Assembly (NCBI GenBank): GCA_937899835.1
Contig: CALCCE010000039.1
Coordinates: 1 to 52,118 of the forward strand
Reading direction: 5' to 3'
Length of the DNA stretch: 52,118 nucleotides
Source: an uncultured Flavobacteriales bacterium
Lineage (GTDB): Bacteria; Bacteroidota; Bacteroidia; Flavobacteriales_G; Salibacteraceae
Shown: positions 31,055 through 35,293 of the stretch, in pieces
Numbering within the stretch: the stretch's first letter is position 1
Layout of the letters: the number at the start of each line of letters is the position of its first letter
Translations under genes and position numbers: made by a program
The notes under the pieces: model-generated
What the model was told of the DNA's origin: nothing
The model's database searches: none
The model's input: only the letters and a program-made list of their open reading frames with translations

Positions 31055-31750
31055 TTAATGGCGGATTACTTTTCGGACCGTTTTTCCGCTGTCAGATGTT
31101 AGACTCAAAAAATAAATCCCCGGATCGTTTAGTTCCACAAAGTATTGTTGCCTGTTAACAATGCGCTCGCTGTAAACCACTTGCCCATTCATGTTTAGAA
31201 GTTCTACTAAAACGTCTTGTGGATTGTCTTGGAACTGAACTTCAACCATCCCGTTTACGGATGGATTTGGGAATATTTTTATGTCGTTTGCCTCAGTCTT
31301 TGTTCCCTCACTGACATTGGTTGGAATTATTTCATTGAACACGCCGTCTCCCCAATGTAGTTGACCGAACTGCATGCAAATCAAGACAATGTGGCCGTAA
31401 TCGTTGATGCCCACTCCCGAGGGTAGATTAAAGGTCATAGCACCTGACGAGTAGTTGAGCCCACTTATTGTCCCAATATTTTCTACGAGCAGCATTCCAG
31501 TAGTGTCAATAGGAGTTGTGTAGTCGTTGTTATTGGTCAAAAACACATGAACGTCAAAAACATTGGTTTGAGTCAGATAATTGGTGTCAAACCGTAGGTT
31601 GAGAGAATTGTCGTCGTACAATTCCAGGTACACATCTCCTTGGAGGGCATAATCACCATCCATTAGCGATGCTTTTCTGACATCTACCAAATTTTGACTC
31701 ATCGCAAAATGAGCAGAAAATAACAAGAGAAGTATCAATGCATTTTTCAT
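31055..31750 (-). CDS. Secreted DM13-like domain protein with T9SS C-terminal sorting domain
   Basis: The protein has 231 residues from ATG at 31750 (MKNALILLLLFSAHFAMSQ, signal peptide). The frame runs 44 codons further upstream, but nothing there looks coding. Residues about 22-138 resemble a DM13 domain: LNLRFDTNYLT, FDVHVFLTNN, GAMTFNLPSGVGINDYGHIV, then ICMQFGQLHWGDGVF, where Cys125 sits at the single conserved cysteine position proposed to be redox-active. Residues about 156-231 are a type A sorting domain (IKIFPNPSVNG, LLNMNGQVV, PGIYFLSLTSDSGKTVRKVI) for secretion through the type IX system. The DM13 call is by eye and moderate; the sorting domain is clear. Confidence 0.75.
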   Translation of the reverse strand: MKNALILLLLFSAHFAMSQNLVDVRKASLMDGDYALQGDVYLELYDDNSLNLRFDTNYLTQTNVFDVHVFLTNNNDYTTPIDTTGMLLVENIGTISGLNYSSGAMTFNLPSGVGINDYGHIVLICMQFGQLHWGDGVFNEIIPTNVSEGTKTEANDIKIFPNPSVNGMVEVQFQDNPQDVLVELLNMNGQVVYSERIVNRQQYFVELNDPGIYFLSLTSDSGKTVRKVIRH

Positions 31751-32363
31751 GATTACTATCCGGAATTTTTTACGGTTAAAAACAACGCTAAACCAAACGC
31801 TTTTCCTTATTCGATTGCTTTTGTTAACACCAGGTATTGAACGCATTGCTTGCAAAAGGGGGAAAACAACAGGTTTTACCAATACTGCCTGTATACTCCA
31901 ACTTATAGATAAAGGGTTACAGTAATAAGGGGCATTCCATTAGTCGGAAGGAAACCTTTCGAGTGAATGTTGGAGTTCAATCAAGGTTTAGATGTGTTCA
32001 TCTGAATGGGATTCAACCTAGTAAAAAATGCACCTCTCACAAAAACTATCCATAAAAAAGCCCTAAACAAAGCAAAGGATGTCTTCACACTGCATTTCTA
32101 GCTGAATTTAAAAGTTAGCGCACCGCAGAATTCCTTCACATAAAATGAACCTTGTTCTTCTTAAAAGCTTCACTCCCACCGGCTCTAATTACCCGGTGCC
32201 GGATACCTGCCAAATGGGCAAGTGTCGCACTATTGAAAACAGGAGGTAATTGCTGATCCAAAGTCAATGAGGCGTTTTAACAGCGTTAGCATTGTAGACT
32301 ACACAAGTTTACAATTGAGGGTTTTTTACTCGAATTTTATGATTTACTGCGGCTTTTGATTCA

Positions 32364-32622: not shown

Positions 32623-33426
32623 ATGAATCGACTCAAAATTCTACCCCTGGCCCTTGTGGCCTTCGCTGCCCTTTTTGTGGCTTGCAACAACGACGACGAC
32701 AATGGCACTGCCTCCACTTCCACTCCAACCAATGGCACTCTGCATCAGGCTTTCTCTGAATTTTCCAGTGACAACGTAACCGTTTATCTCGACGGGGATG
32801 AGGTTGTGATCGAAACCAATGGGCAACCCAACCACACTTCTCCTTATTGGTCGAGTACCAATTCACGCATGGGCACCCCGGCAGCATCGGCGGATCATCC
32901 TTTGTTTGTGGCCCCTACCGTCACCAGTTATGACGATATGGCCCCTGGAAACATTGATGATTTTAATGGGAGCTATACTCTGCGCGTACCCGTTTCCGCA
33001 GAGAAAGCCAGCTCTACAAGTTCCACGGGATTGGGCGCTATCGGAATTGCAGTAAGCGGTGGTGTGATCTACAACGATGAAGAAGGGCCTAATGTGCCTT
33101 TGGACAATGCGGCTCCATCCCTGGATTATTCGGGCGCACACACGGGCCCACAATCCTACCATTACCACTTGGAACCCAAAGCCTGGTCTAACGACGACGA
33201 TGCCCTCATTGGAATTATCTCCGACGGTTTTTTTCTTTACGGCCGAAGAGACTATCCATCGGGCGCCTACCCTACCGATTTAGATGCTTCTGGTGGGCAC
33301 TTTGGTCCTACGCCACACAATGCTGATGGTGAGTATCACTACCACGTTCAAAACGATTTGTACCTGAACCTGTATTACATCCTATTTCCGGGCGACTATC
33401 AAGGCACTCCCAATGCGATTCGATAA
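32623..33426 (+). CDS. YHYH domain lipoprotein
   Basis: The protein has 267 residues from ATG at 32623; the frame extends 79 codons upstream, but the signal peptide (MNRLKILPLALVAFAALFVAC) fixes the start. Cys21 is the likely lipid site and is followed by NNDDD. The central and C-terminal parts carry two copies of the motif that names the family, Y179-H-Y-H and Y238-H-Y-H, with IGIISDGFFLYGRRDY and LDASGGHFGPTPHNADGEYHYH between and around them. The function of the YHYH domain is not established; paired His-Tyr motifs suggest metal binding. Its end overlaps the MORN-repeat gene by 14 bases, and an SCO1-like gene follows, which favours a copper-related role (inference). Confidence 0.88.
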   Translation: MNRLKILPLALVAFAALFVACNNDDDNGTASTSTPTNGTLHQAFSEFSSDNVTVYLDGDEVVIETNGQPNHTSPYWSSTNSRMGTPAASADHPLFVAPTVTSYDDMAPGNIDDFNGSYTLRVPVSAEKASSTSSTGLGAIGIAVSGGVIYNDEEGPNVPLDNAAPSLDYSGAHTGPQSYHYHLEPKAWSNDDDALIGIISDGFFLYGRRDYPSGAYPTDLDASGGHFGPTPHNADGEYHYHVQNDLYLNLYYILFPGDYQGTPNAIR

Positions 33427-34000
33427 GCTGATTGGTATCCTTCTTGTTTTATGGAGTGGCGGCTGTCACTCTCCAGAACCAGATGCATCAAATGTGGCGG
33501 TTCCAGACCGAAAGGTGGCCGTTGCTTCCCTGGTGCTGCAACCTGAGCAAGGGCTCTTTTTCTATGAAGGAGTACCCTTTTCCGGTACCGCCTCCGCTCA
33601 ATACGCCAACGGATCACCTTCTGCGTCTACGCAATACCTTTTTGGGAAAAAACACGGTGTGCACCAACAGTGGTTTCCCAATGGGCAATTGAGTTTCCAA
33701 AGCGAATACCAGCACGGCAAAAAGCACGGCACCACTACTTCTTGGTGGCAAAATGGCCAAAAGCGGAGTACAACCCCTTTCAAAAGTGGTGTAGTCCACG
33801 GCCAGGTGTTGCAATGGTACAAAAGCGGCACCTTGTTCAAGCGCTTGCATTTGGAAGAAGGGAAAGAAAATGGCTTGCAACAATCTTTCCGTGAAAACGG
33901 CAAACTGTTCAGCAATTACGAAGCAAAAAACGGCCGCGTGTTTGGTTTAAAAAGGGCGGGCCTCTGCTATCAATTGGACGATGAAGAGATTCAGCTTTAG
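33413..34000 (+). CDS. MORN-variant repeat lipoprotein
   Basis: The 195-residue protein has a short lipoprotein-like signal (GILLVLWSGGC, Cys18; the residue at -3 is Ser, so the lipobox is imperfect). From about residue 45 it carries five or more roughly 22-residue MORN-variant repeats: HGVHQQWFPNGQLSFQSEY, HGTTTSWWQNGQKRST, HGQVLQWYKSGTLFKRL, NGLQQSFRENGKLFSNY. Proteins with these repeats are often auto-labelled YwqK antitoxins, but nothing here supports a toxin-antitoxin function. ATG at 33413 overlaps the YHYH gene, and the end overlaps the SCO1 gene by 20 bases, so the three are translationally coupled. Confidence 0.85.
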   Translation: MRFDKLIGILLVLWSGGCHSPEPDASNVAVPDRKVAVASLVLQPEQGLFFYEGVPFSGTASAQYANGSPSASTQYLFGKKHGVHQQWFPNGQLSFQSEYQHGKKHGTTTSWWQNGQKRSTTPFKSGVVHGQVLQWYKSGTLFKRLHLEEGKENGLQQSFRENGKLFSNYEAKNGRVFGLKRAGLCYQLDDEEIQL

Positions 34001-34640
34001 ACTTGGCTTGGGTTTGCTGCTGCTCGGAGCGTGTTCTACACCTCAGAAAGAAGTAGACAGTCGGGTAGAAACCCTTCCTTTCTACAACGAAGCCAGTTTT
34101 ACTCCCCATTGGATCTCGCCCGAAGCCGCCCGAAAGGCTTCGTTTCACCAGGTTGCTCCTTTCCAATTGGTCAACCAGGATGGGGATACGCTCACTGAGG
34201 CCACGTTTGCCGGAAAGATTTACGTCACCGATTTCTTTTTTACTTCCTGCCCGGGCATTTGCCCTAAGATGACCCGCAACATGAAAGTGTTGCAAGAAGA
34301 ATTTAGGGAAGACAAGGAAGTGTTGCTCTTGTCCCACTCCGTTACCCCCAAGCGCGATTCGGTTTCAGTGTTGAAAGCGTATGCCGACAACCACGCCATC
34401 GTATCTGGAAAGTGGCATCTGGCAACCGGCAGTCAGGACGAAATTTACCATTTGGGTCGACAAGAATATTTTGTGGAGGAAGACCTGGGCTTACTAAAGG
34501 AAGCAGATGCGTTTTTGCACACCGAAAATTTTGTACTCATCGACCGGAACCGCTACATCCGTGGGATATACAACGGACTGAACCGCACCTCGGTACAGCA
34601 ACTGATCGCTGACATTCGCACCTTGAAAGGCGAACACTGA
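33981..34640 (+). CDS. SCO1/SenC family copper-binding lipoprotein
   Basis: The 219-residue protein has a good lipobox (LLLLGAC, Cys18) and a thioredoxin-like domain from about residue 55. The copper ligands are present: C90 and C94 in TSCPGICPKM, and H180 in DAFLHTENFVLIDRN. SCO proteins deliver copper to, or reduce the CuA site of, cytochrome c oxidase, and some defend against oxidants; a stand-alone lipoprotein form faces the periplasm. Here no oxidase genes are near; the partners are the YHYH and MORN lipoproteins upstream, with the start overlapping the latter by 20 bases. Confidence 0.93.
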   Translation: MKRFSFRLGLGLLLLGACSTPQKEVDSRVETLPFYNEASFTPHWISPEAARKASFHQVAPFQLVNQDGDTLTEATFAGKIYVTDFFFTSCPGICPKMTRNMKVLQEEFREDKEVLLLSHSVTPKRDSVSVLKAYADNHAIVSGKWHLATGSQDEIYHLGRQEYFVEEDLGLLKEADAFLHTENFVLIDRNRYIRGIYNGLNRTSVQQLIADIRTLKGEH

Positions 34641-34699: not shown

Positions 34700-35293
34700 A
34701 TGCTATCCAAAGTTTCCGCTGAGGTACTGAAACTACTTTCAAAACCGCCCCAATTTGCGATCCCTGAACTGGTAGACGTACCATTTGATAAGTCGCACCC
34801 CCAAAAACGACCCGTAAAATACACGGGCCAACTCCCAGAGGTGGGTGGCATTTATGCTTTCTGGCTGGATAATCAAGATCAAATAGCCGCCAGCTTGAGG
34901 CGAAAATTGCACCTAAAGGGACCCGCTGGCCAAAAGAAGGTTTGGATTGAAACATGCTGGCACTTGCCTGAAAAACAGCCTCCATACATCCTGCTCTACG
35001 TGGGCAAATCCACCAACTTAAAAAATCGATTTGGCTTGCACCTGAAACTGCAAACCGAAAAATGGCAATACCCTACAAATGGAAGCCTATATAAGCCTAC
35101 TACTTCTTGTCAGCTTCGATCTGGTATTGAACACCTGATCAGCCAACAGCCCAACCTCCACTTTTTCCCATTCATCAAAGAACGGCTACGGTACTCCTAC
35201 GTTAGAGTGGACCGGTTTGAAGATCGGTTCTACGCAGAAGATGCAGCCATTGGGCTGGGCAGGCCTTGGTTCAACCTTGATTCGGAGCGCTAA
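34700..35293 (+). CDS. GIY-YIG nuclease-like protein
   Basis: The 197-residue protein carries the GIY-YIG signature: G50-I-Y (GGIYAF), Y100-V-G (ILLYVGKSTNLKNRFGLH, with R110 and H114), E180 in the final helix (DRFYAEDAAIGLGRPWFN) and N192. All catalytic positions are thus filled. The spacing between the GIY and YVG strands (48 residues) is unusually long because of an inserted basic segment (LRRKLHLKGPAGQKK). Stand-alone proteins of this type include repair, restriction-like and homing nucleases; nothing adjacent tells which. It sits 59 bases after the SCO1 gene and may be cotranscribed or independent. Confidence 0.78.
   Translation: MLSKVSAEVLKLLSKPPQFAIPELVDVPFDKSHPQKRPVKYTGQLPEVGGIYAFWLDNQDQIAASLRRKLHLKGPAGQKKVWIETCWHLPEKQPPYILLYVGKSTNLKNRFGLHLKLQTEKWQYPTNGSLYKPTTSCQLRSGIEHLISQQPNLHFFPFIKERLRYSYVRVDRFEDRFYAEDAAIGLGRPWFNLDSER

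Follow-up and report, generated by a model that had tools for sequence, protein, structure and literature searches.

A conserved YHYH-MORN-SCO lipoprotein gene unit in Bacteroidota is a candidate copper-loading module of the cell envelope

The DNA analysed here (the window) is a stretch of 52,118 nucleotides from an uncultured Flavobacteriales bacterium of the family Salibacteraceae (GenBank assembly GCA_937899835.1, contig CALCCE010000039.1, positions 1 to 52,118). At 32623-34640 on its forward strand lie three consecutive genes for putative lipoproteins, namely a YHYH protein (PF14240), a protein with MORN_2 repeats and a protein of the SCO1/SenC family. These three genes form one conserved unit. 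Its parts belong to known families, and the unit would be a chaperone plus client in which YHYH is the main client family. On balance, we think it probable that the SCO and MORN proteins form a module that loads copper into envelope or secreted proteins, of which the YHYH protein is the commonest client.

Results

Three overlapping lipoprotein genes in the window

The features of the locus are as follows, with the basis of each assignment.

32623-33426, forward strand: lipoprotein of 267 aa with a YHYH domain (PF14240) of the short type with two motifs, lipobox C21; open reading frame (ORF) and profile, conserved in trio loci
33413-34000, forward strand: MORN_2-repeat lipoprotein, 195 aa, lipobox C18; ORF and profile
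33981-34640, forward strand: lipoprotein of 219 aa from the SCO1/SenC family, within the trio SCO clade; ORF, profile, tree and alignment
33413-33426, forward strand: overlap of the YHYH and MORN ORFs, 14 nt, also the commonest value among relatives
33981-34000, forward strand: overlap of the MORN and SCO ORFs, 20 nt; ORF coordinates, recurs in relatives
32833-32835, forward strand: His71 of the YHYH protein, invariant in 21 diverse short YHYH proteins and nearly so when long and phage types are included
33139-33141, forward strand: His173 of the YHYH protein, invariant in the 21 short proteins and nearly so with long and phage types
33157-33168, forward strand: first YHYH motif, residues 179-182, common to short and long types
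33334-33345, forward strand: second YHYH motif, residues 238-241, whose His is missing in the seven long-type proteins aligned
33965-33967, forward strand: Cys185 of the MORN protein, 100% conserved (100 sequences)
34074-34112, forward strand: LPFYNEASFTPHW, the N-terminal signature of trio SCOs; sequence comparison
34248-34262, forward strand: CPGIC, residues 90-94, with the SCO copper ligands C90 and C94; ORF, conservation and alignment
34518-34520, forward strand: His180, the third SCO copper ligand; ORF, conservation and alignment

The original prediction had described three consecutive ORFs overlapping by 14 and 20 bases, and the ORF coordinates agree with it to the base. Its two YHYH motifs and its MORN-variant repeats are likewise present, and the families score over their cut-offs: 41.3 bits for the YHYH protein against PF14240 (cut-off 25, in two stretches), 46.5 bits for the MORN protein against MORN_2 (PF07661; cut-off 29.6) and 92.3 bits for the SCO protein against SCO1-SenC (PF02630; cut-off 22.8). 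The lipoprotein signals predicted for all three genes are found as lipobox-like ends, namely FVAC (C21) in YHYH, SGGC (C18) in MORN and LGAC (C18) in SCO; these were read by eye, and a simple lipobox pattern matches FVAC and fails on SGGC. The gene overlaps recur in relatives, at 83/87 MORN/SCO junctions and 46/63 YHYH/MORN junctions, with starts set by a heuristic and cases lacking a scorable start dropped.

As predicted, no oxidase gene is nearby: among the 37 other window ORFs scanned (part of them at E <= 1e-5), neither an oxidase nor a known copper family scored over its cut-off. The source genome (6.9 Mb, 307 contigs) has three PF14240 and three PF02630 matches, and only the pair in the window stands together. 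At G000:C250:14242-14811 the same genome has a long-type YHYH match with an in-frame TGA.

YHYH, MORN and SCO genes are linked across genomes

We define a trio as YHYH, MORN and SCO genes in this order on one strand. The YHYH proteins are of two types: the long type covers the full profile, while the short type, of about 260 aa, covers profile positions of about 1-110 plus 150-188. In our first sample, 395 Bacteroidota genomes were searched with the PF14240 profile alone, and 39 had a match. Short-type loci near the window type (phmmer E under 1e-20) comprise 21 intact loci in 19 genomes, the window counted, and 20 of the 21 are trios; the exception, L049, has no SCO. At one further locus (L075) the YHYH gene is broken by stops, MORN is kept and SCO is missing, so that the count becomes 20/22 if it is included.

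The second sample came from a search of relatives with the YHYH alignment only, in which 80 loci were kept of 526 relatives. A trio is present at 72 of these 80; of the others, three run off the contig, four have YHYH and MORN without SCO, and one has YHYH alone. The 80 loci are mostly from Bacteroidota, one (L156) being from Psychrosphaera, while L149 and L136 are contigs of metagenome-assembled genomes labelled Gemmatimonadota and proteobacterium, for which mis-binning is possible. Both samples clearly bear out the linkage of YHYH and SCO genes in related genomes that the original prediction had called for. Of the single membrane-tethered complex that it had proposed, the conserved unit of three genes stands, while the tethering is read from the lipoboxes. 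Judging by the gene neighbourhoods, the unit often extends beyond these three genes.

We then compared 220 distinct YHYH ORFs, a count that excludes 14 loci overlapping refetched ones (window fragments included) and ORFs identical in their last 120 residues. With the short type defined as over 180 bits, a line drawn after the scores were seen, 99 of 116 short-type ORFs have both MORN and SCO within 1.5 kb, and 111 of 116 pass if MORN alone is required. MORN or SCO is near only 10 of the remaining 104 ORFs. The second YHYH motif, considered as a marker of SCO linkage, was rejected on this survey.

PF14240 matches also occur in 28 of 398 Pseudomonadota genomes, with one trio (L205) among the 20 places fetched; the Psychrosphaera genome has another (L156). 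The window YHYH protein matches six plasmid records, five of which were examined: a Persicobacter record (L178) carries a trio, two Loktanella records have YHYH beside a PEBP gene, and two further records lack SCO. In phage records, the window YHYH protein gave no tblastn match. Chance adjacency of the three genes is rejected by the trio counts in the second sample and in the survey of 220 ORFs, together with the SCO searches described below.

The trio SCO belongs to a clade of its own

The copper ligands C90, C94 and H180 named in the original prediction are confirmed and are 100% conserved in 94 SCO sequences. The window SCO aligns over residues 56-214 to BsSco/YpmQ (1xzo), with the CxxxC and the distal His in register. 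SCO genes are frequent, with matches in 340 of 395 genomes at E <= 0.001 (309 over the cut-off), so that proximity alone could mislead.

Two lines of evidence separate the trio SCOs from the rest. Firstly, they are monophyletic in a tree of 62 trio rows (of 98) and 30 distinct non-trio rows (support 100/94; one change, with 0 of 500 shuffles as low), in which the bootstrap had not settled. The alignment used starts 35 residues before the CxxxC and therefore largely leaves out the second line of evidence, an N-terminal motif, LPYY..F.P, found in 102 of 108 trio rows and in none of 32 other rows (rows that include some genes fetched twice). A search of the 395 genomes with the window SCO found 76 genomes at E <= 1e-36. 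In this reverse direction, 29 SCO loci were newly fetched: all 14 with the motif are trios, and none of the 15 without it is, their flanks being free of MORN and YHYH.

We also probed eight genomes since one locus in each lacked SCO. Seven have an SCO elsewhere (57-64% identical): three stand alone with the motif (L243, L244, L247), three lie within a further trio (L242, L245, L246), and one is a lone SCO with the variant motif LPFYNGPDFTA (L248/L302). In the eighth, whose locus runs off the contig (L114), the rest of the assembly has no such SCO. A one-to-one YHYH-SCO pair was given up as a description of the system, since SCOs of the clade are also found without YHYH, either paired with MORN or alone.

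Among the 37 other window ORFs scanned, there is none of the oxidase genes whose neighbourhood would mark an SCO of CuA assembly, and another SCO of the window's genome (L067) lies beside COX3, UbiA and DUF420 genes. Because the genome has this separate SCO beside COX3, and because the trio SCO belongs to a distinct clade, CuA assembly is not favoured, and a role other than CuA assembly, which the original prediction had left as possible, appears likely from these sequence comparisons. The window's genome also encodes a DUF6702-like protein (L068:6113-6649), whose neighbours are a cytochrome c and an SCO that is not of a trio.

MORN-SCO pairs adjoin genes for copper enzymes

Lytic polysaccharide monooxygenases (LPMOs) are known copper enzymes and need copper. 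In the genome of Aquimarina litoralis that also has the locus L093, a MORN-SCO pair with the motif stands without YHYH (L292). At 56 bp after its SCO gene follows a gene for a 760-aa protein (L292:7201-9483) with LPMO_10, PKD and type IX secretion system (T9SS) domains. LPMO_10 scores 153.2 bits (cut-off 23), with profile positions 1-183 at residues 42-217, and a His opens the domain after the leader (HGTVTSPPSR at 42). Five genomes of one genus have such pairs, with SCOs of the trio clade, next to LPMO_10 genes of the T9SS type or otherwise:

L292:5891-9483; L311; L314; L319; L324; L330; L332: MORN-SCO pairs (trio clade) adjoining LPMO_10 genes

LPMO_10 is rare in the Bacteroidota sample (1 of 326 genomes), and the one genome that has it shows no SCO or MORN within ~8 kb on each side. 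In the genus of Aquimarina litoralis it is frequent (20 of 31 genomes). Six of the 30 LPMO loci examined from that genus, in five genomes, have SCO and/or MORN within 1.5 kb; in these five of the 31 genomes, MORN-SCO without YHYH adjoins LPMO_10, with SCO-LPMO gaps of about 56-600 bp. Two LPMO genes flank the pair in one of these genomes (L311, L324). The five LPMO-linked SCOs fall inside the trio clade in a tree of 52 rows (42 of 98 trio rows, the five LPMO-linked and five others; support 100/96), where they form a 100/100 subclade next to YHYH-linked SCOs; the bootstrap of this tree had not settled, and it carries a long-branch warning. Of the MORN proteins linked to LPMOs, the four with a C-terminus in the available sequence all retain Cys185.

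Because MORN-SCO pairs of the clade adjoin LPMO_10 genes, copper handling by the unit gains support; the link raises the odds of a copper reading, and of the more far-reaching proposal given in the Discussion, and lowers those of the rivals. The SCO of the clade may load these LPMOs, and the conservation of the trio, taken with the pair beside a copper enzyme, suggests that the YHYH protein is a copper protein too. Another MORN-SCO pair without YHYH lies beside a gene for a secreted protein (L293:3-395, reverse strand). Close to the start predicted for its mature form, this protein has the sequences SHGTQTSYC and EHWHG. It has no Pfam match and is possibly another copper client.

Conserved residues and types of the YHYH protein

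Across a diverse set of 21 short-type proteins, seven His (His71, 173, 180, 182, 226, 239 and 241) and three Asp (Asp168, 201 and 221) are invariant, and the mature protein has no conserved Cys. When 47 short, long and viral rows are aligned, Asp168 and Asp201 remain invariant and His71, His173, most of the first motif and Asp221 nearly so, while the second-motif His is missing in the seven long-type rows. This pattern suggests a core site common to all types, to which the short type may add further ligands. In the part of PMC7824862 available, the YHYH domain is predicted to be a metal-dependent hydrolase with a Zn site of a His triad plus Asp. The conservation of His and Asp across types fits this prediction: His71, His173, His180/182 and Asp168/201 match the predicted site, the equivalence of residues to those of PMC7824862 being assumed.

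Two structure models of the YHYH protein were made, with mean predicted local distance difference test (pLDDT) values of 77 and 73.3. In the first, parts of 154-188 are under 50; in the second, this region is partly better. In these models the region of the first motif has low confidence. Neither has a match in the PDB (lowest Foldseek E-values 0.98 and 2.2; highest VIA Z-score 2.6, within residues 46-126), which does not establish the fold as new. The second model matches viral YHYH models (best E 2.7e-9). PDB sequence profiles gave weak lectin matches at best (E 0.56) for one alignment (A7) and, for the other (A6), EF-hand proteins in the 60 of 190 rows listed, nearly all of these rows matching outside the YHYH domain. 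In these structure searches no solved YHYH structure was found.

PF14240 is found in bacteria and diatoms as well as in phages and giant viruses, and several of its proteins deserve mention in their own right. A 973-aa protein (L090:2287-5208) has a long-type YHYH domain and also strongly matches the short window protein, so that it is probably both types in one chain. In 8 of the 80 loci, a second, long-type YHYH gene lies upstream of the trio (cluster c14; for example L125:8785-9927); in the one protein of this cluster that was scanned, YHYH is fused to EF-hands, and the N-terminus of some others is rich in His. In the Pseudomonadota sample, PEBP is fused to YHYH at L195:5323-7509 (reverse strand), and the PEBP genes beside YHYH on Loktanella plasmids are at L174 and L176. 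Also in Pseudomonadota, small secreted-looking proteins of about 110-120 aa are encoded downstream of short YHYH genes (L202, L204, L206, L208); they have a His-containing start and several Cys, and the one scanned has no Pfam match. DUF6702-like proteins are encoded beside other YHYH proteins at L050, L057, L060, L184 and L186.

The MORN protein and the possibility of thiol chemistry

Apart from the lipobox Cys, Cys185 is the only conserved Cys of the MORN protein, for which a docking or relay role may be proposed. An alternative to copper loading is that the SCO reduces Cys185 as a thiol-disulphide reductase, and that YHYH, in line with the prediction made for phage tails, is a hydrolase that depends on Zn. 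The full conservation of Cys185 would agree with this, as would the stronger linkage of YHYH to MORN than to SCO, the Zn site predicted in the available part of PMC7824862, and the proposal, in the part of PMC7558416 available, that Thermus Sco1 is an oxidoreductase. Against it stand the full conservation of the SCO copper ligand His180, the lack of a second conserved MORN Cys and the LPMO neighbours, which point to copper. We regard thiol chemistry as quite unlikely to be the function of the unit.

Genes around the trio

Extracytoplasmic function (ECF) sigma and CnrX/Spy-like genes lie near the trio and on its strand in 25 of the 80 loci, 21 of which have a gene for a short membrane protein too. 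A CnrX-like gene is present in 29 of the 80, and 16 of these 29 proteins match Metal_resist (PF13801) at E <= 0.01, with a lowest E of 2e-7; two of the matches score 23.9 and 20.0, below the cut-off of 29.2. In the 395-genome sample the cassette is found at 3 of 20 trios (L036, L059, L064), and it also occurs at L185 and L191 from other samples. In addition, a T9SS-sorted YHYH gene without SCO adjoins CnrX-like and ECF sigma genes (L054:6655-9237, reverse strand). EF-hand genes lie near the trio in 21 of the 80 loci.

Such a cassette would also suit a unit of metal defence, in which YHYH and SCO bind excess copper or another metal in the envelope for sequestration or repair under an ECF/CnrX-like switch, with no enzyme being loaded; the SCO-less YHYH gene beside CnrX-ECF genes is consistent with this. 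However, the recurrent neighbour families that were examined include no metal exporter or multicopper oxidase, and a MORN-SCO pair next to an LPMO gene fits enzyme loading better. Metal defence seems an unlikely role.

CotH genes are present in 13 of the 80 loci, in 10 of them near the trio and on its strand. Together with the fn3, TSP3 and T9SS sorting domains on some YHYH ORFs, and with the very long structural frames in which phage YHYH domains sit, they would be expected of a surface or adhesion module in which YHYH and MORN are structural and the SCO is a passenger in the operon that serves a respiratory client. Against this, the trio SCOs group apart from other SCOs and follow YHYH whichever of the two is searched for first, and the window's genome has its oxidase-cluster SCO besides; we consider this third alternative very improbable.

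Beside the trio in the window itself lie a divergent gene for a T9SS-sorted protein (31055-31882, reverse strand), whose match to DM13, an electron-transfer domain, is weak (16.9 bits, under the cut-off of 25), and a GIY-YIG-like gene (34700-35293). Apart from the window's own copies, no relatives of either were found in the compared loci.

Discussion

We propose the following mechanism. The specialised SCO paralogue would bind copper at its CxxxC and His, and with the MORN lipoprotein and its one invariant Cys it would load copper into an envelope or extracellular client. The usual client would be the His-rich YHYH lipoprotein, whose invariant His and Asp would form the metal site, while the LPMO of one genus is an alternative neighbour in the client's place and probably another client. 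YHYH would then be a copper protein, probably an enzyme, beside which many genomes place an ECF sigma/CnrX-like envelope sensor that may regulate the unit.

The trio SCO resembles the SCO1/SenC/PrrC chaperones (PF02630; BsSco YpmQ, 1xzo/1on4) in profile, in its CxxxC and distal His, and in its lipobox. It differs from them in its separate clade, its LPYY..F.P N-terminus and its tie to YHYH-MORN or LPMO genes, with no oxidase genes in the loci seen. The window YHYH protein belongs to the same Pfam family as the YHYH domain of jumbo phages and cyanophages, and its model matches viral YHYH, whereas the short type has a second motif, extra His (226, 239, 241), a lipobox and a chaperone partner. 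Where present, the sensor cassette is like the CnrYXH-type ECF system in having an ECF sigma factor, a short membrane protein and a Metal_resist/LTXXQ-like protein in a row; unlike that system, it accompanies a subset of trios, and its metal sensing is predicted.

There are precedents for SCO proteins that serve clients outside cytochrome oxidase, each taken from the part of the source available. In Streptomyces, GlxA receives its copper from Sco, which has been suggested to serve the LPMO LpmP too (PMC9040799) and whose targets are not limited to cytochrome oxidase (PMC3603459); SenC2 for NosZ is a further precedent (PMC7558416). How LpmP gets its copper is given as unknown in PMC9040799. Like the Streptomyces enzymes that depend on Sco, the unit described here would have an SCO supply copper to a non-respiratory surface or secreted enzyme; it differs in that the trio SCO forms a distinct clade, is predicted to be co-transcribed with MORN, and has a YHYH family that is uncharacterised as its usual client. 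A survey of copper genes in the genome of Bizionia argentinensis covers its SCO proteins, and the word YHYH is absent from the part of its main text available (PMC11213822). Judged by title and the start of the abstract, no published description of a YHYH-MORN-SCO unit was found in the literature searches.

Several points weigh against copper loading of YHYH. The window trio has no sensor cassette, an ECF sigma gene being found only at 32 kb, and CnrX-type sensors are known for Ni/Co. YHYH is linked more tightly to MORN than to SCO (111 vs. 99 of 116), and many YHYH proteins have no nearby SCO, 26 of them being weak short-type proteins with two motifs. Nor is the trio clade exclusive to YHYH, as MORN-SCO pairs stand without it beside an LPMO (L292) and a secreted protein (L293), and four lone SCOs that fall in the clade (L298, L299, L300, L302) stand without MORN or YHYH. 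The LPMO link was seen in one genus, where it may be a single event, and 24 of the 30 LPMO_10 loci examined there show neither SCO nor MORN in flanks of 1.5 kb. For the YHYH protein, neither structure model resolves the site, and the metal of the published prediction is Zn (PMC7824862, available part). Copper binding by YHYH and its transfer by the SCO, both proposed in the original prediction, and interaction of the trio proteins are predictions from sequence.

A more far-reaching proposal, which we put forward tentatively and hold to be possible if somewhat doubtful, is that the YHYH proteins of the short type make up a new family of envelope copper enzymes with a multi-His site built from both motifs (the seven invariant His). 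They would be loaded by a specialised SCO-MORN module that can also be paired with LPMOs. This module would be a general means of supplying copper to secreted oxidative enzymes that take no part in respiration or denitrification.

Despite the wide occurrence of PF14240, we found neither an assigned function nor a solved structure for it. The strictly linked chaperone module, which elsewhere stands beside LPMOs, offers a testable biochemical handle on this family. The unit also bears on how secreted copper enzymes such as LPMOs acquire their copper.

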